A stretch of 64,000 bases of DNA from Paludibacteraceae bacterium (GTDB lineage Bacteria > Bacteroidota > Bacteroidia > Bacteroidales > Paludibacteraceae): contig JAQVJY010000004.1 of NCBI GenBank assembly GCA_028694915.1, positions 62,001 through 126,000 of the forward strand, given 5' to 3'. This document shows positions 13,188 through 19,267 of this stretch, in pieces (within the stretch, counting starts at the first letter, position 1; every line of letters starts with the position of its first letter). The notes beneath the pieces are model-generated. The model saw only the letters and a list, made by a program, of their open reading frames with translations, was not told the origin of the DNA and did not search any database. Both the position numbers and the translations under genes were made by a program.

Positions 13188-13562
13188 TTACTTTTTAGGA
13201 CGTTTTGCGCCATATTTTGAGCGACGTTGTGTGCGTGATGAAACACCAGCAGTATCTAATGTACCGCGAACGATGTGATAACGTACACCTGGTAAGTCTT
13301 TAACACGACCACCACGTACCAAAACAATAGAGTGCTCTTGCAAATTGTGGCCTTCACCTGGGATGTAGGCATTGACTTCTTTTGAGTTAGTCAAACGCAC
13401 ACGTGCAACTTTACGCATAGCCGAGTTTGGCTTTTTAGGCGTAGTCGTGTAAACACGTACACAAACACCACGACGTTGTGGGCATGAAGCCAATGCTGGC
13501 GACTTGCTTTTGTCTTCCAGAGTAACCCTTCCTTTTCTAACTAATTGCTGAATTGTAGGCAT
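13188..13562 (-). CDS. rpsL: 30S ribosomal protein S12
   Basis: uS12, 124 residues, in the decoding centre. [20 protein letters not shown] carries the conserved lysines (K43, K44) whose changes give streptomycin resistance elsewhere, and [13 protein letters not shown] the second resistance loop; both look wild-type. First gene of the ribosomal block, 55 bases after a strong promoter. Confidence 0.97.
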
Positions 13563-13616
13563 TTTTTCTGATTTTTAATACTTAAAACTGTTAATTCTTC
13601 CCACTATTTGGGGCTG

Positions 13617-13647
13617 CAAAGGTACAACTTTTTTCGGAACTGACAAG
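13617..13647 (-). promoter_or_regulatory. Promoter of the rpsL ribosomal block
   Basis: On the - strand TACCTTTG (13617-13624) matches the Bacteroidota -7 box TAnnTTTG, with CTTG (TTG at 13644-13646) exactly 19 bases upstream. Transcription would start near 13610, leaving a leader of about 50 bases before rpsL. Nothing comparable is seen inside the block, so this promoter probably drives most of it. Confidence 0.8.
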
Positions 13648-13751
13648 GGGTTAATCAATTATTTTTCAGAAAATTTACGCTTCATTACTCGATGGCTAAA
13701 GCATCCAAAAAAAAGTCGCCAACTGAGGCGCTCTTTTTTATCCAAAATGGC

Positions 13752-13759
13752 TATCTTTG
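13752..13759 (+). promoter_or_regulatory. -7 box of the HAD phosphatase gene, almost leaderless
   Basis: TATCTTTG fits TAnnTTTG; the upstream element is only a T-run. Only 7 bases separate the box from the ATG at 13767, so transcription should begin at or next to the start codon. Confidence 0.6.
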
Positions 13760-13766
13760 CACCACG

Positions 13767-14420
13767 ATGAAAAAACTGATTATTTTTGACCTCGACGGTA
13801 CGTTGTTGAACACCATTGACGACTTGGCAATGGCTACTAATCACGCTTTAGCCGAAAATGGCTACCCTACGCATGCGGTGGAAGCGTACAATTTGTTTGT
13901 AGGAAACGGCATCAATAAACTCTTTGAACGCGCGCTGCCCGAAGAGGCACGTACGCCCGAAAACGTATTACGCATACGCGCTTCATTTATACCGTTTTAC
14001 GACGCTCACAAACGCGACCTCACACGCCCATACGACGGCATTCCAGCATTACTAAAACTACTCCACGACAACGGCTTACAACTCGCCATTGCTTCCAATA
14101 AATACCAACTTGCGACGGAAAAACTTGTAAATTATTATTTTGCAGACACGCCATTTATAGCCGTGTTTGGACAACGCGACAATGTGCCTATAAAACCAGA
14201 CCCAACGGTGGTGGAAGAAATTAGAAAACTGGCAAATGCAGAGCAAGCAGAAACGCTATTTGTAGGCGATTCGGGCGTAGATATGCTCACCGCCCAGCAC
14301 GCTGGCGTTACCGCGGTAGGTGTAACGTGGGGATTTCGCTCGGCAGAAGAACTACGCACCTATAACCCCGATTATTTGGTAGCAAAACCTGACGATATTC
14401 GGCTTTTATTGGGTTTATAA
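13767..14420 (+). CDS. HAD-family phosphatase, phosphoglycolate phosphatase-like
   Basis: 217-residue HAD subfamily IA hydrolase, cytoplasmic. All four motifs are visible: I FDLDGTLLNT (nucleophile D8, acid D10), II IASNK, the KPDP lysine (motif III) and IV GDSGVDM. A small helical cap lies between motifs I and II. The start MKKLIIFDLDGT at 13767 is chosen over an upstream ATG at 13692, because the promoter box lies inside that extension. The substrate is unproven: Gph, a pyrophosphatase PpaX-like role or another sugar phosphatase are all possible. Divergent from rpsL. Confidence 0.9.
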   Translation: MKKLIIFDLDGTLLNTIDDLAMATNHALAENGYPTHAVEAYNLFVGNGINKLFERALPEEARTPENVLRIRASFIPFYDAHKRDLTRPYDGIPALLKLLHDNGLQLAIASNKYQLATEKLVNYYFADTPFIAVFGQRDNVPIKPDPTVVEEIRKLANAEQAETLFVGDSGVDMLTAQHAGVTAVGVTWGFRSAEELRTYNPDYLVAKPDDIRLLLGL

Positions 14421-14594
14421 AAACCTTTTAAAAAAAAGCATTTATCTTCCAAAAAAGTGGTTGACACGAAGCCGTTTATTTTCGGGTAAATTCTAGTAAT
14501 AGAAAGAAACCAAACAAAATCTAATGACTTTATCATAGTTCTCAGATAAGGACAAAATATGCGCCGAGAATATACTAATTCCAATGCTCATAAA
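14421..14594. other. Gap between convergent genes, nothing recognised
   Basis: 174 bases between the HAD gene and the end of the TPR-DUF2971 gene. No hairpin with a T-run and no convincing reading frame was found. The A+T-rich composition of the region to the right begins here. Confidence 0.5.
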
Positions 14595-16127
14595 CTATTT
14601 GTAGGGCAAATGCGAAATAGCAATTTTGGGCATCCTCTTTTCTTTTTTGTAACTATAATATAAAGCTGAAGCCCATTCATTTGCCTTATCCACTTTGGGA
14701 CCTAAGGTGATTTGTTCTACACTCGTTCTTATTGGCATAAGCTCTATATAAACCCGAGGTGGATTGACAGATTTATCATCCTTGTTTTTCTCGCAAAATT
14801 TCTTTTCAAACTCAATACCATTCATTACTAGCCGCACTTCATTTTCATTTTCATAATCATCTCGTTTAAACAAAAAGGCGATATAATTTAGGTATTCTTC
14901 TAAGCTAGTTATATTTGCAGTTTCTTTATTTATATAAGCGTTTACACATTTTTTTAGGGTATTCATCATTCCTGCAAATTCACCAGCTTTGTCAGATTCT
15001 AATTTTGGAATTTTAAAGTTAGATGAGTTATGCGGTAAATAAACCACCCGATAAAAGTTTATATCACTTTCATCCTCTATACGGGCTTCTTCATTTTTTT
15101 CATTTGATAGAGAGTCTTTGATATCTTCAATATAATCTTTCCTTCTCAGAACAATGGCACATCCTTTGGCTTCTACTCCATCCTCTTTACCATAAAAACG
15201 CCACATATTTAAGTTATTACATTTATCTTTGGTAACGAAGCTACCAATAAAGGGTTTCGGCACAAAAGCTTCCATTTCAGTCGTTTCCACTTCTTTCTTT
15301 TTATACTCATCATATAAAAAGCTATAAAATTCTGTACCTTCGGAAGGATCATTCATAAAGTTTCCTTCAGATATTCTTAACTTGCTGTTATCCGCAAGAA
15401 TTAATATCTTCATAGAGGAAAGGCTGGTGTAATGTGTAATGCAGTCTTCGTTTAGACATAAACTTTCTTTTATCTTGAAAACCAAATTTTTAATTTCGGT
15501 TAGATCAGTATCATTTATCTCATCAAGTTTTTTTAAATAGTAGTTTGCATACCGAACACCAATATCATTTTCTTCAGAAGTAATATCCAAATATTTTTCG
15601 AGGTCATTTTTACTTCTTTGTATTGATTCAATATTATTTTCTTCGTTTATGGCTTTTTTATAGTATGTTAAACCTCTGTAATAGTAAGCATTTCTATCAC
15701 TTATACTTCGAATCATAGCTTGTGTGTAGTCCTCAATCGCCTTATCATAACTTTCATAAAACACTCTGTTAATATGTCCTCGACTAATGTATGCTTCGGC
15801 AAATTTTGGGTCTAAATTAATAACCTTATCCAAATATTTTATCGCTTCGCTATAATCCTTTCTAGTGATAAATATTTGGGCTTTGTTATATAATGCAAGT
15901 GTATAATTCTTATTAAGGTCTATTGCTTTGTCATAATCATTAATGGCTTTATTTTTACTTTGGTCATCTTTTTTATTATACCATGCATTTCCTCTCCACA
16001 CATACAATTCGGAATTCTTTAGTTGTTTTAGTAGTTCATCTGTAAGCAATGTAATAACATCATCAAACCTTTCTTGATTAAATAGTTCTTCTGCTTTTTT
16101 AATAAGCTCAGTTGTATTTTTTGCCAT
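14595..16127 (-). CDS. TPR repeat protein with DUF2971-like C-terminal domain
   Basis: 510 residues, no signal peptide. Residues about 1-200 are tetratricopeptide repeats (for example ALYNKAQIFITRKDYSEAIK and AEAYISRGHINRVFYESYDK), a protein-binding scaffold. From about 225 to 500 the pattern HYTSLSSMKILILADNSKLR ... NDPSEG ... NLNMWRFYG ... EVRLV resembles DUF2971, a family of unknown function. It starts 34 bases after the radical SAM gene and appears to be the last gene of that operon. The gene is clearly more A+T-rich than the flanking core genes. What it does for the peptide system is unknown. Confidence 0.75.
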   Translation of the reverse strand: MAKNTTELIKKAEELFNQERFDDVITLLTDELLKQLKNSELYVWRGNAWYNKKDDQSKNKAINDYDKAIDLNKNYTLALYNKAQIFITRKDYSEAIKYLDKVINLDPKFAEAYISRGHINRVFYESYDKAIEDYTQAMIRSISDRNAYYYRGLTYYKKAINEENNIESIQRSKNDLEKYLDITSEENDIGVRYANYYLKKLDEINDTDLTEIKNLVFKIKESLCLNEDCITHYTSLSSMKILILADNSKLRISEGNFMNDPSEGTEFYSFLYDEYKKKEVETTEMEAFVPKPFIGSFVTKDKCNNLNMWRFYGKEDGVEAKGCAIVLRRKDYIEDIKDSLSNEKNEEARIEDESDINFYRVVYLPHNSSNFKIPKLESDKAGEFAGMMNTLKKCVNAYINKETANITSLEEYLNYIAFLFKRDDYENENEVRLVMNGIEFEKKFCEKNKDDKSVNPPRVYIELMPIRTSVEQITLGPKVDKANEWASALYYSYKKEKRMPKIAISHLPYK

Positions 16128-16161
16128 AATTATAACAGATTGAAAATATTGTTTATTTACT

Positions 16162-17628
16162 TTAGGATTTCAATTCCACCTCTGCAATTTGTCTATTGAG
16201 TTTCGCAATATTACAAAAGAACTCATTCACCACCAATGGATCTCCCTGAGGGTTTTCATTTGCATTTCTAACCATACACATGGTACAATATTCCTTATCA
16301 GCACATTGAGTACATTTAGGAAAATCTTTATTACGCAAATTCCTTAAATATTGGACTTTTTGAGAATTATCCCAGATTTCTTTGAGCGAAGTCTCTTTTA
16401 CATTTCCAACAACATAATCCTGCCAGCCGGCACATGGATATACATTCCCATTATCTGAGATACAGATAGAAGAATGACAAACGCTACAAACAAAATCATC
16501 GGGTGTAATATATTCTTTCTTCTCCGCCTCCAGTCTCAGTTGCTCCAAATATTTTGAATCTGTGGCAACTTTTTTAATAATTACTTTTTTAATATCATTA
16601 ATTGATAGGCGGCAATTAAGGTTCTGCGTTGTATGATTATATTTCGCAATAATAACAGAATCTGCTCCGACATGAAGCTTGAATTCCCCTGCCCATTTTA
16701 TAACTTCATCGTAACAGTCTTTGTTTTGTTTCATGATTGGGCAGCTTATTTGTAAAGGGATATCATTATCAACTAGTTGCAAAATTGCTTTTTTGGTTTT
16801 CTCAAAACTCCCTTTCATTTGTGTTATCTCATCGTGAATTTTAGGATTCATTGAATATAATGAAGTTTGAACGCCTAAAAGTGGATTTCTCTTCATTTCT
16901 TGAAGAATTTCATCATTAAGTAACGTCAAATTACTAAGCACATTTACTGAGAAATTATATTCGTTGCATTTACTTAAAAAATCAGGAAAGCTTTTATGCA
17001 ACATAGGTTCACCACCGCTTATATTCAAATGCAACAACCGCATATTCTTACATTGTTCTAAAATATTATAAAACAAATCAGATTCCATATGATGCACTTT
17101 ATTTTCATGTGGAATATAACAATGTACACATCTTTCATTACATTTACTTGTAATTTCTAGGTGTAAATTAGTAAGCTGAGGGGTTCCTTTAAAATATTCT
17201 TCAAAAAAATCTTGCGTACCATTTTCTTTACGAACAACAATTGAAGAAGAACCCTTGTGGACTATTTCAGGGTTTGCTGTTTTATACGAAAATCTTGTAT
17301 CTTTATTATTGCATTCTTCAAAAGTGTCACCAGACACAACAAAGCCATCTTGTTCGAGTACACAATAAAATTCATTAGCGTCAGTCTCTATTGTTTTAAT
17401 GTCAACATCTAAAAATTGTGTATTAATTTTTTTTACAAGTTCATCAAGAGTTTGTGGTGTCCTGCCTAAAACAGACATAAAAACCGTCCCGCTTTCGGAA
17501 AGAATTTTATCCCCGATGTAATTTTCATCATCACCCGTTTGTTTATATCCAAAATTTCTATTGTCAGTTATATATCCAAAAGACTCATAGTTCCTGAATA
17601 TAACATTTGATTTTTGTTTAAAATACAT
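16162..17628 (-). CDS. Radical SAM/SPASM peptide maturase with PqqD-like N-terminal region
   Basis: 488 residues, cytoplasmic. Residues about 40-100 (GTVFMSVLGRTPQTLDELVK ... LEQDGFVV) have the pattern of a PqqD-like RiPP recognition element. The radical SAM core follows, with C163xxxC167xxC170 (SKCNERCVHCY) and GGEP at 205-208. The C-terminus is a SPASM domain with cysteines at 381, 384, 389, 399, 439, 442, 448, 451 and 472, enough for two auxiliary Fe-S clusters. Enzymes of this build modify ribosomal peptides (thioether, C-C or related crosslinks). The 38-residue peptide gene immediately upstream is the obvious substrate. The reaction type cannot be told from sequence. Confidence 0.9.
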   Translation of the reverse strand: MYFKQKSNVIFRNYESFGYITDNRNFGYKQTGDDENYIGDKILSESGTVFMSVLGRTPQTLDELVKKINTQFLDVDIKTIETDANEFYCVLEQDGFVVSGDTFEECNNKDTRFSYKTANPEIVHKGSSSIVVRKENGTQDFFEEYFKGTPQLTNLHLEITSKCNERCVHCYIPHENKVHHMESDLFYNILEQCKNMRLLHLNISGGEPMLHKSFPDFLSKCNEYNFSVNVLSNLTLLNDEILQEMKRNPLLGVQTSLYSMNPKIHDEITQMKGSFEKTKKAILQLVDNDIPLQISCPIMKQNKDCYDEVIKWAGEFKLHVGADSVIIAKYNHTTQNLNCRLSINDIKKVIIKKVATDSKYLEQLRLEAEKKEYITPDDFVCSVCHSSICISDNGNVYPCAGWQDYVVGNVKETSLKEIWDNSQKVQYLRNLRNKDFPKCTQCADKEYCTMCMVRNANENPQGDPLVVNEFFCNIAKLNRQIAEVELKS

Positions 17629-17645
17629 AACATTGTCTTTTAAAA

Positions 17646-17682
17646 TTAGACGACGAGTTTTTACTAAAACATCGTCGTCTAA
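17646..17682 (-). terminator. Perfect inverted repeat between precursor and maturase genes (attenuator-like)
   Basis: TTAGACGACGA (17646-17656) and TCGTCGTCTAA (17672-17682) form an 11-pair perfect stem with a 15-base loop, followed on the - strand by TTTTAAAAG. It lies 12 bases after the precursor stop and ends 17 bases before the maturase ATG. A partial terminator or 3'-protecting stem would let the peptide be made in excess over the enzyme, as in many RiPP operons. Confidence 0.65.
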
Positions 17683-17694
17683 CTCAATTGTAAA

Positions 17695-17811
17695 TTAACG
17701 CCCGCCAGGTGCTGGTGGGTTACAAGGTCTTCCACTTGGCTTACTATTTGGACGACATTCCGCCATCTGCATAGTACCTTGAGCCAAGATTGCTGGTTTT
17801 GTGTAAATCAT
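17695..17811 (-). CDS. Putative RiPP precursor peptide (38 aa)
   Basis: Small gene read ATG at 17811 to TAA at 17695-17697. The N-terminal part contains YTKPAILAQGTM (residues 3-14), which fits the YxxPx(L/I)xxxGx(F/M) leader pattern that lasso-type RiPP recognition elements bind. The C-terminal half has two cysteines (19 and 30) in CRPNSKPSGRPC and a proline/glycine tail ending GGR; the core contains no aromatic residue. It is preceded by GAGGAGG at a 7-base spacing and followed by a strong stem and a radical SAM enzyme. No protease or exporter gene is adjacent. Leader/core division near residue 18 is an inference. Confidence 0.8.
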   Translation of the reverse strand: MIYTKPAILAQGTMQMAECRPNSKPSGRPCNPPAPGGR

Positions 17812-17818
17812 AACAATA

Positions 17819-17825
17819 CCTCCTC
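17819..17825 (-). promoter_or_regulatory. Strong Shine-Dalgarno site of the precursor peptide
   Basis: GAGGAGG on the - strand, 7 bases before the ATG at 17811. It is the strongest such site in the accessory part of the window and supports the small gene being real and highly translated. Confidence 0.75.
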
Positions 17826-17849
17826 TTTAAAAAAATTATTAATACAATT

Positions 17850-17888
17850 AAGTATAAAATAGTGGGAAAAGAGTCTCTCACTATACTT
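17850..17888 (-). promoter_or_regulatory. Imperfect hairpin in the precursor leader
   Basis: AAGTAT (17850-17855) pairs with ATACTT (17883-17888) and AGTG (17861-17864) with CACT (17879-17882), with an AAAAT bulge. It lies in the presumed 5' leader of the peptide operon. Role unknown; mRNA stability is a guess. Confidence 0.35.
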
Positions 17889-18060
17889 TATCTTAACATT
17901 TATCCACTCCTATCAAACTATTACATATATCAAGGTTAACTATTATCCTCATTGAAAAAAAATATCCAGATTCCTAAAATTCACGCCACGAATATACCGT
18001 TTTATTTTTAGTATCACAACTTTTATACATATTTTTTTACATAGCGACTTTAGGTAATAC
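17889..18060 (-). other. Upstream region of the peptide operon
   Basis: A+T-rich sequence without a coding frame. The best promoter-like element on the - strand is TAACCTTG (17931-17938), one mismatch from TAnnTTTG, with only a T-run at the -33 position. No known operator is recognised. Confidence 0.3.
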
Positions 18061-18090
18061 AAAAAAGCCCTGCAAGTGGACTTACAGGGC
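18061..18090 (-). terminator. Terminator of queF
   Basis: GCCCTG...CAGGGC stem (18067-18072 with 18085-18090, extended by AAG/CTT) followed by six T on the - strand. It lies 24 bases after the queF stop. Confidence 0.85.
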
Positions 18091-18113
18091 TAAACATATC
18101 TAATTTGCTTTGG

Positions 18114-18566
18114 TTATTGGTGGTTGATAAGGCGCTGCGCCGCCATGGCTTCGTATGGGGTGCCAAGCTGTCCGTAGTTAGCAAACGGATAGATGGAAAT
18201 GCCGCCACGAGGCGTGAAAATGCCTGTTACTTCGATGTATTTGGGCTGCATCAAGGCGATGAGGTCTTTCATAATAATATTGACACAATCTTCGTGAAAG
18301 GCGCCATGATTACGAAAGCTGAACAAGTAGAGTTTCAAACTTTTGCTCTCTACCATTTTCACCGCTGGCAAGTAACTAATGCGAATTTCAGCAAAATCGG
18401 GTTGCCCCGTAATAGGGCACAAGCTGGTAAATTCGGGACAGTTGAACCGCACCCAATAGTCGTTGTCGGGATGTTTGTTATCGAACGCCTCGAGCACTTC
18501 GGGCGCATAAGTTTGTTTGTACTCGGTTTTGCGACCGAGCAAACTCAGTTGATCGTTTAGTTCCAT
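18114..18566 (-). CDS. queF: NADPH-dependent preQ0 reductase QueF
   Basis: 150 residues, the short (YkvM) type of the tunnelling-fold enzyme that reduces 7-cyano-7-deazaguanine (preQ0) to preQ1 in queuosine synthesis. The catalytic cysteine C50 sits in [13 protein letters not shown], with D57, and the QueF signature for NADPH binding is ESKSLKLY at residues 73-80. The terminus [13 protein letters not shown] is also typical. It starts 20 bases after yhhQ, so precursor uptake and reduction share one transcript. Confidence 0.96.
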
Positions 18567-18586
18567 ACTAGATTGAATAAACGTGA

Positions 18587-19267
18587 TTAAATGTCTTTGA
18601 TTTTCAACGGATTGTACGACACGCCCGCATCGAACGTATCAACGCCTTCTACTTTTTTAATGGCTTTCACCACGCGAATGGTGAGTGGCAACACCACGAC
18701 TTCGTAAAGCGATTTGAGCACAATTTGAACAGCCATCAGTTTGAGTAGTTCGATGCCTGGAATAATACCGCCAAAAGCAATGGGGAAAAAGATAATGGAA
18801 TCGGCCATTTCGCCCACGAGCGTACTCAACACCGCACGTAACGAGAAATGTTTGCCAGCGTGCAGCAATTTCATTTTACTCATAACAAACGCATTGAGGA
18901 ACGAACCGACTAAAAACGCCGCTAACGAAGCTACTACAATGCGTGGCGCCATGCCAAACACAAAGTTAAATCCTGCTTCACCATCCCAAAACGGAGCGGC
19001 TGGCAGCATAACGGCAATTTGCCCCATAGCCACCACAAAAAAGTTCATGGCAAAACCACTCCAAATGATAAGACGCGCCTTTTTGAATCCCCACACTTCG
19101 GCAATACAATCGTTGATGATGTACGAAATGGGAAACACTAACAAACCGGCAGTCATGGTAATTCCAAAAACTGTGATTACTTTGGTTTCGAGCAAATTAG
19201 CTGTGATAAGGCAGACATTAAACAGAATGCCCAACAGCATGAAGGGAACAGATACTTGTTGTTTCAT
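18587..19267 (-). CDS. yhhQ: Queuosine precursor transporter YhhQ
   Basis: 226 residues, an inner-membrane protein with about six hydrophobic segments. Family signatures include [36 protein letters not shown] and [14 protein letters not shown]. The family takes up preQ0/preQ1. Pairing with queF supports salvage of preQ0. The ATG overlaps the stop of a 22-codon frame (ATGA), and the preceding 35 bases can fold like a preQ1-I aptamer. Confidence 0.94.

Follow-up and report, generated by a model that had tools for sequence, protein, structure and literature searches.

A probable peptide-maturase cassette of the radical SAM/SPASM type, with an optional TPR-DUF2971 partner, in Paludibacteraceae and other bacteria

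Several described systems bring a short peptide together with a radical S-adenosylmethionine (SAM) enzyme carrying a SPASM region, among them the SkfB-type sactipeptide maturases, the ranthipeptide maturases of the PapB type, and the pyrroloquinoline quinone (PQQ) and mycofactocin pathways. The PQQ precursor carries a Glu-Tyr pair and the mycofactocin precursor a C-terminal Val-Tyr; viperins, the radical SAM proteins of anti-phage defence, act on nucleotides. The locus compared with these systems here lies in a 64,000-nucleotide stretch of Paludibacteraceae bacterium GCA_028694915.1 (contig JAQVJY010000004.1, positions 62,001-126,000 of the forward strand), referred to as the window. Its minus strand, on which all gene features given below are located, carries a gene for a 38 aa precursor peptide (17695-17811), a 488 aa radical SAM/SPASM maturase (16162-17628) and a 510 aa protein joining tetratricopeptide repeats (TPR) to a DUF2971 domain (14595-16127), separated by gaps of 66 and 34 bases. 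A first-pass annotation had proposed these as an operon for a ribosomally synthesized and post-translationally modified peptide (RiPP); the single strand, gaps of 34-66 bases, strong Shine-Dalgarno site and A+T-rich composition that it reported are all confirmed in the sequence.

The peptide-maturase pair

Species genomes were scanned for homologous maturase loci, of which the best 80 of 564 relatives were kept; together with two viral contigs and the window, these amount to 83 loci; of the 22 matches in IMG/VR, 20 were dropped as pieces of 23-38% identity. A small open reading frame (ORF) bearing a leader motif lies within 900 bases upstream of the maturase at 71 of the 83 loci and farther upstream at 8 more. 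The first-pass annotation had made its reading depend on a similar peptide recurring beside homologous maturases, and it recurs at 79 of 83. The four remaining loci are L024, L035 and L053, which lie at or near contig starts, and L044, where no such peptide is found in 4 kb upstream. The strict form of the leader motif (at least two cysteines) occurs upstream of 64 of the 83 maturases and in none of 1280 control stretches, each 960 bases long, and the loose form upstream of 71 of 83 compared to 41 of 1280. Three types of peptide track the maturase tree, with 2 label changes vs 30.2 in shuffles on a tree of 81 rows, from which L040 and L055 were excluded for stops inside the match. Type A, that of the window, has the core C-R-P-N-S-K-P-S-G-R-P-C; type B, mostly from Spirochaetes, reads A-A-G-C-P-A ... 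C-x-x-C-E-R-T-K; and type C, from Bacillota, reads C-G-x-G-P-C-G-R-P-C.

The precursor in the window has the sequence MIYTKPAILAQGTMQMAECRPNSKPSGRPCNPPAPGGR. Its conserved leader, Y-x-K-P-x-[IV]-x-A-Q, spans residues 3-11 (17779-17805) and was defined by residue counts over 73 peptides; the Ala (65/73) and Gln (59/73) were not demanded by the search motif, while Tyr, Lys, Pro and [IV] were partly required by it. The core, M-A-E-C-R-P-N-S-K-P-S-G-R-P-C-N-P-P-A-P-G-G-R, spans residues 16-38 (17698-17766), by counts over 34 type-A peptides, and its two cysteines, residues 19 and 30, are 11 residues apart. Ala17, Cys19, Pro25 and Pro35 are invariant in all 34; Cys30 is likewise present in 34 of 34, but by definition, as the type-A call required GRPC and nothing else. 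A third cysteine, at position 26, is seen in 5 of 34.

The ratio of nonsynonymous to synonymous differences (pN/pS) over the 34 type-A peptides is 0.25 for residues 2-38, 0.09 for residues 16-30 and 0.43 for the leader (residues 2-15). The mean pN and pS components are 0.060 and 0.689 for residues 16-30, 0.098 and 0.646 for residues 16-38, and 0.245 and 0.571 for the leader; these replace an earlier estimate on 31 cores (pN 0.055, pS 0.679), for which the selection pattern had fixed 10 of 15 positions. The core is thus under strong purifying selection, the DNA having widely diverged with the core hardly changed. Bacteriocins usually diversify, and a near-invariant core, unlike typical bacteriocins, suggests one conserved target or partner.

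The reading in which the small ORF is a product of chance, beside genes with no common function, could point to the TPR-DUF2971 gene, which was not found at 31 of the 35 other loci of the window's maturase clade (clade A). Against it stand the strict-motif counts, the low pN/pS of the core and the contig matches of TPR-DUF2971 described below, and as an account of the whole locus it is hardly credible. For the peptide and maturase it is refuted, as the co-occurrence, control and selection tests together rule out a chance pairing. Judged from sequence, it is highly probable that the two form a RiPP-type pair.

The maturase itself is well supported by Pfam, with scores of 75.6 bits for Radical_SAM (PF04055) and 46.1 bits for SPASM (PF13186), both above cut-off. 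The radical SAM core (16690-17157) contains C163-x3-C167-x2-C170, three cysteines that all 81 aligned maturases retain. Cysteines 381, 384, 389, 399, 439 and 442 lie inside the SPASM region (16303-16488) and cysteines 448, 451 and 472 beyond it; the auxiliary-cluster cysteines are kept in 80 or 81 of the 81, except C384 (57/81). The PqqD-like N-terminal region, or RiPP recognition element (RRE), proposed in the first-pass annotation does give a match at residues 43-97 (17338-17502), but at 18.9 bits this stays under the PF05402 cut-off of 23.4, and a PF05402 annotation is carried by 10 of the 120 homologues listed, which are 72-98% identical, two fusion proteins apart. The fusions, P0016 and P0024 (~825 aa), join two radical SAM/SPASM units, of which the first starts directly at the radical SAM core and the second resembles, by eye, a clade-B maturase.

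In comparing the maturase to established families, it falls far under every NCBIfam cut-off among the 25 of 57 families shown, the best score being 105.7 bits vs 500. Assignments to PQQ (PqqE, TIGR02109; 90.8 vs 381.35), mycofactocin (MftC, TIGR03962; 84.9 vs 265), PapB-type ranthipeptides (NF047865; 61.7 vs 340), SkfB (TIGR04403; 58.5 vs 300) and viperin (NF038283; 56.8 vs 180) were rejected, and the AlbA and StsB cut-offs are also not reached. By profile the nearest solved relative is SkfB, and PADLOC returned generic, weak viperin matches only. The window peptide matches no NCBIfam or Pfam family, and five peptides from clades A, B and C of the maturase tree likewise match none in NCBIfam. 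The peptide-maturase pair is covered by no NCBIfam or Pfam family.

In the literature searched, which lies mostly outside subscription journals, no listed paper on radical SAM RiPPs in connection with defence, Bacteroidetes, UvrA/TatD or plasmids describes the pair in its title or abstract start. Of five peptide motifs, only the string 'cgrpc' occurs among the papers listed (18 of 19 matched), none of which has a title concerning such a peptide. At least one published screen discarded many radical SAM clusters after looking for adjoining transport or maturation genes (PMC4289311), and with such a filter a two-gene cassette would be easily missed.

Distribution, mobility and genomic setting

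Judging from record titles or lineages, the loci (the species-genome set being the best 80 of 564 relatives) span Bacteroidota, Spirochaetota, Bacillota, Pseudomonadota, Thermodesulfobacteriota, Deferribacterota, Elusimicrobiota and a few others. Many lie in metagenome-assembled genomes (MAGs), for which some taxon labels may reflect binning errors; records not marked as MAGs include Dysgonomonas, Segatella, Pectobacterium, Acerihabitans, Clostridium magnum, Blautia and Butyrivibrio. Within the lineage of the window's genome matches to the maturase are few: none of 11 other genomes of the family has a match at E<=1e-30, 9 of 295 genomes of the order match at E<=1e-25 (four of them, including the window's own, with at least 71% identity), and 2 of 395 genomes of the phylum match at E<=1e-100, again including the window's own. 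The pair is a mobile cassette, and its distribution is sporadic.

A maturase 51-53% identical to that of the window is found on 7 of 72,556 plasmid records, all typed conjugative: five from Escherichia, one from Salmonella and one from Photobacterium. In the four records that were read (L180, which is NZ_LT985265.1, and L181, L182 and L183), the maturase is preceded, at a distance of 75-77 bases, by a 38-codon ORF encoding the same core. This ORF is not in the PLSDB gene table for any of the four, the table being incomplete by its makers' account. A recombinase gene is located just before the precursor in three of the four, and each of the four copies is followed by a different gene. Among the 83 loci, an integrase-like gene cluster is present at 5. 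Phage genomes gave no match at E<=1e-30, and among complete E. coli genomes nothing close in DNA to the plasmid copy was found. One of the IMG/VR viral contigs, L092, holds both precursor and maturase, with a holin-family gene ~280 bases after the latter.

The window locus is itself a small A+T-rich foreign insert. Its G+C content is 0.321 over 14595-17811, compared to 0.405 in the window outside 14421-18113. In a relative of the same genus (82% complete), the stop codons of the HAD gene and queF are ~60 bases apart; the window has 3.7 kb there. The relative keeps the order fusA, rpsG, rpsL, HAD, queF, transporter, MscS-type, lpxK around the site, and DNA similarity to it resumes near 18129 on the queF side, which places the insert at 14421-18128; the relative lacks the three-gene locus. 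The Shine-Dalgarno sequence of the precursor gene, a perfect AGGAGG at 17819-17824, stands 7 bases before the peptide ATG. Sites of this strength are uncommon among Bacteroidota, and this one would fit a foreign origin or a high expression of the precursor; G-rich sites of Shine-Dalgarno type also precede many homologous peptides. An Rfam scan of 13500-18700 gave a single sub-threshold snoRNA match, taken as chance, a tRNA scan found no tRNA, and promoter-like sites were no more frequent than in shuffled sequence.

The genes surrounding the homologous loci were compared to the families of PADLOC, in counts that are inflated in that one protein may match many models. In the first set, 134 of 211 flank proteins, from 12 of 18 clade-A loci, match 80 families at E<=1e-15, compared to 3 for an equal number of control proteins (134 of 246), encoded on the same contigs at a distance of at least about 18 kb. 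In the second set, 127 flank proteins from 20 clade-A loci give 215 families vs 7 over 86 controls, which were drawn from the contigs of six loci of this set and one of the first. For clade B, 143 of 168 proteins from 22 loci match 52 families, a number that has no control of its own; the other 25 proteins belong to clade C and were left out. The first tally includes cyclase and AbiE families and the second includes type I restriction families. Of six flank proteins compared one by one, five match: a type IIG restriction enzyme at L016, Lamassu LmuB and a TIR-type protein at L012, a PDC-M62 ATPase at L030 and a PrimPol-type protein at L014, with no match for the one at L050. A TIR-STING protein is recognized by Pfam at L015.

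Across the loci tested, which cover 32 of the 35 other clade-A loci, the neighbourhoods are strongly enriched in anti-phage families relative to controls. The site in the window does not itself lie in such an island. For the peptide-maturase module as a whole, we consider a defence-type role about evenly balanced with its absence.

Partner genes and proposed mode of action

Besides the peptide and maturase, no gene cluster (ORFs of at least 70 aa) is common to more than 32 of the 83 loci, and no exporter or protease gene is common to them at this ORF length. This bears on the possibility that the product is an antimicrobial RiPP, likely a sactipeptide or ranthipeptide bacteriocin, which is exported to kill competitors while the partner genes give immunity or assist. 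SkfB, the nearest solved relative of the maturase, makes a killing factor, and the core is rich in Cys, Pro and Arg. In clade C, a UvrA-like ATPase of ~780-800 aa follows the maturase at all seven loci (L068, L072, L074, L084, L088, L090 and L091), and UvrA paralogues serve as self-resistance proteins for DNA-acting antibiotics. However, besides the lack of a common exporter or protease, the four plasmid copies read carry four different following genes, and the type-A core is near-invariant across phyla in a way not expected of diversifying bacteriocins; an antimicrobial product is thus considered unlikely. A second radical SAM protein of ~350 aa is also present at 6 of the 7 clade-C loci, with none seen in the 2.5 kb that remain at L088.

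A TatD/amidohydrolase-type protein occurs at 32 loci, every one of them within the 40-locus clade-B part of the tree. This TatD/amidohydrolase-2-type protein is ~250 aa long and lies after or near the maturase (e.g. L042, L049, L066); it may work together with the peptide as a peptidase or a nuclease. As a peptidase, it would also suit a peptide-derived cofactor or signal, similar to PQQ or mycofactocin, in which the peptide would be cut down to a small molecule for enzymes encoded elsewhere, and the short conserved core and putative PqqD-like region fit such a pathway as well. The gene clusters include no common user enzyme, however, the distribution is sporadic and mobile, and on reading its sequence the peptide has neither the Glu-Tyr pair of PQQ nor the C-terminal Val-Tyr of mycofactocin, which makes a cofactor quite improbable.

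In clade A, TPR-DUF2971 is the sole recurring downstream neighbour that was noticed. The first-pass annotation had presented it as part of the operon; its linkage to the maturase does recur, but it is not a fixed part. At 2 of the 35 other clade-A loci (L012 and L021) the maturase is followed by a complete copy; at L016 the gene runs off the contig, and at L027 only the TPR part is present; these counts are a lower bound, as L016, L020, L023, L026, L033, L089 and L093 have less than 1.5 kb after the maturase. Among the clade-A loci, the DUF2971 domain profile finds only L012, L021 and the window (and duplicates on the same contigs), and a fixed operon part is accordingly rejected: TPR-DUF2971 is an optional add-on to the peptide-maturase pair. 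That the link might be limited to this one genome, a concern of the first-pass annotation, is answered by the 120 best TPR-DUF2971 homologues, 26 of which share the length of their longest contig with a maturase among the 120 best, where ~1.4 would be expected by chance. Ten of the 26 size-matched contigs are under 10 kb, and from their size the two genes would be close there. In the genome of L015, the TPR-DUF2971 protein at L116 is 39% identical to that of the window, is encoded on a different contig and has no maturase within the 3.3 kb covered, the maturase lying elsewhere in the genome. Downstream of another clade-A maturase, L028:8693-9376 encodes a 228 aa protein with Y-H-A-N-T near its start that is ADP-ribosyltransferase-like by eye.

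The DUF2971 domain (PF11185) is recognized in the window protein at 26.8 bits vs a cut-off of 22, generic DUF2971 members are matched at 97% probability in profile comparison, and 652 homologues at E<=0.001 were found among 7998 candidates scored. In the predicted structure, residues 2-222 (15462-16124) form a TPR superhelix, with TPR matches in the PDB, that may serve as a peptide-binding part, and residues 223-510 (14598-15461) the DUF2971 domain. As a search with the full-length model was filled by TPR matches, the DUF2971 domain was folded alone (pLDDT 75.8); its top structural matches are DarT and Tpt1, with weak scores. Comparison to a DarT sequence profile gave a probability of 0.1-0.4%, from a DarT alignment of only 6 rows that is weak evidence either way. 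The domain is weakly predicted to have a DarT/Tpt1-like ADP-ribosyltransferase (ART) fold. His232 is conserved in it and, with the Glu428/Glu430 pair, is a candidate residue for such an activity. PADLOC has no match for TPR-DUF2971 at E<=1e-5, and in the same literature, mostly outside subscription journals, DUF2971 turns up in a single paper, on genome re-annotation, and never with radical SAM.

DarT is the toxin of toxin-antitoxin pairs, and the resemblance raises the possibility of an addiction module, in which either the modified peptide or the DUF2971 protein would be toxic to its host cell unless kept in check, stabilizing the carrier. The conjugative plasmids, the recombinase gene adjoining three of the four copies read and the integrase-like cluster at 5 loci are all consistent with this. 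At many loci, however, only peptide and maturase are present with no recurrent candidate antitoxin, and in the window no separate DarG-like partner adjoins TPR-DUF2971; an addiction module is given the same low probability as an antimicrobial.

The reading we prefer is that of an intracellular peptide in a phage-defence-type module. The leader would dock on the PqqD-like region of the maturase, whose radical SAM and auxiliary clusters would form Cys-based thioether links in the Cys-GRPC core. Aromatic cross-links, a class that includes cyclophane, streptide-like and darobactin-like links, are less likely because the core contains no Trp, Tyr or Phe. Since no exporter or protease is common to the loci, the modified peptide would act inside the cell, and the enrichment in defence genes suggests that the module would protect the cell or its mobile carrier. 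In the subtype of the window, TPR-ART would be the effector, its activity set by binding of the peptide to the TPR superhelix. The whole chain, from a modified peptide that stays in the cell through control of a TPR-ART effector to a phage-defence-type module, is tentative, and we place it somewhat short of an even chance. A peptide-controlled TPR-ART taken alone is possible but doubtful, and a general scheme with an intracellular, near-invariant RiPP, carried across phyla by plasmids and islands, as signal or guard of phage-defence modules, their effectors swapped by clade (TPR-DarT-like ART, UvrA-like ATPase, TatD-type), is more speculative still.

Comparison with known systems

Beyond the first-pass annotation, the analysis adds the mobile cross-phylum cassette, its defence-island setting and the prediction of an ART-like fold for DUF2971. 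If true, a modified peptide retained by the cell and encoded near anti-phage genes would link the chemistry of RiPPs to immunity in bacteria. The ART-fold prediction offers a testable function for DUF2971, and the enterobacterial plasmid copies give easy laboratory access to the peptide-maturase pair.

In comparing the pair to RiPP systems, SkfB-type sactipeptide maturases are similar in being SPASM enzymes with a PqqD-like N-terminus, putative in the window maturase, and in being encoded next to a Cys-containing peptide, and SkfB is the best solved match; unlike these systems, the loci have no common exporter, protease or immunity genes, and the TIGR04403 score is well below its cut-off. Ranthipeptide (SCIFF) systems of the PapB type also pair a SPASM maturase with a Cys peptide, and from the sequence Cys thioether chemistry is likely here too; however, NF047865 is not reached and the window peptide has two cysteines. 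PQQ (PqqA/D/E) and mycofactocin (MftA/C) share the short peptide, the radical SAM/SPASM enzyme and, putatively, the PqqD-like element, but the window precursor is without their reacting residues and no pathway genes adjoin it in the window. Prokaryotic viperins, which the maturase weakly matches in PADLOC, are likewise radical SAM proteins, but the window maturase stays below the NF038283 cut-off and differs in its putative PqqD-like region, its SPASM region and its peptide partner.

For the TPR-DUF2971 protein, DarT and Tpt1 are the best aligned structures of the predicted domain, by weak scores; unlike them, DUF2971 is fused to TPR and linked to a maturase, the resemblance has no sequence-profile support, and the window holds no DarG-like gene. 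The RRNPP peptide-sensing TPR regulators offer an analogy for the other half of the protein, as its TPR superhelix could similarly bind a short peptide of the same operon, although the opposite end is DUF2971 in place of a DNA-binding domain and the peptide bound here would likely be a modified one.

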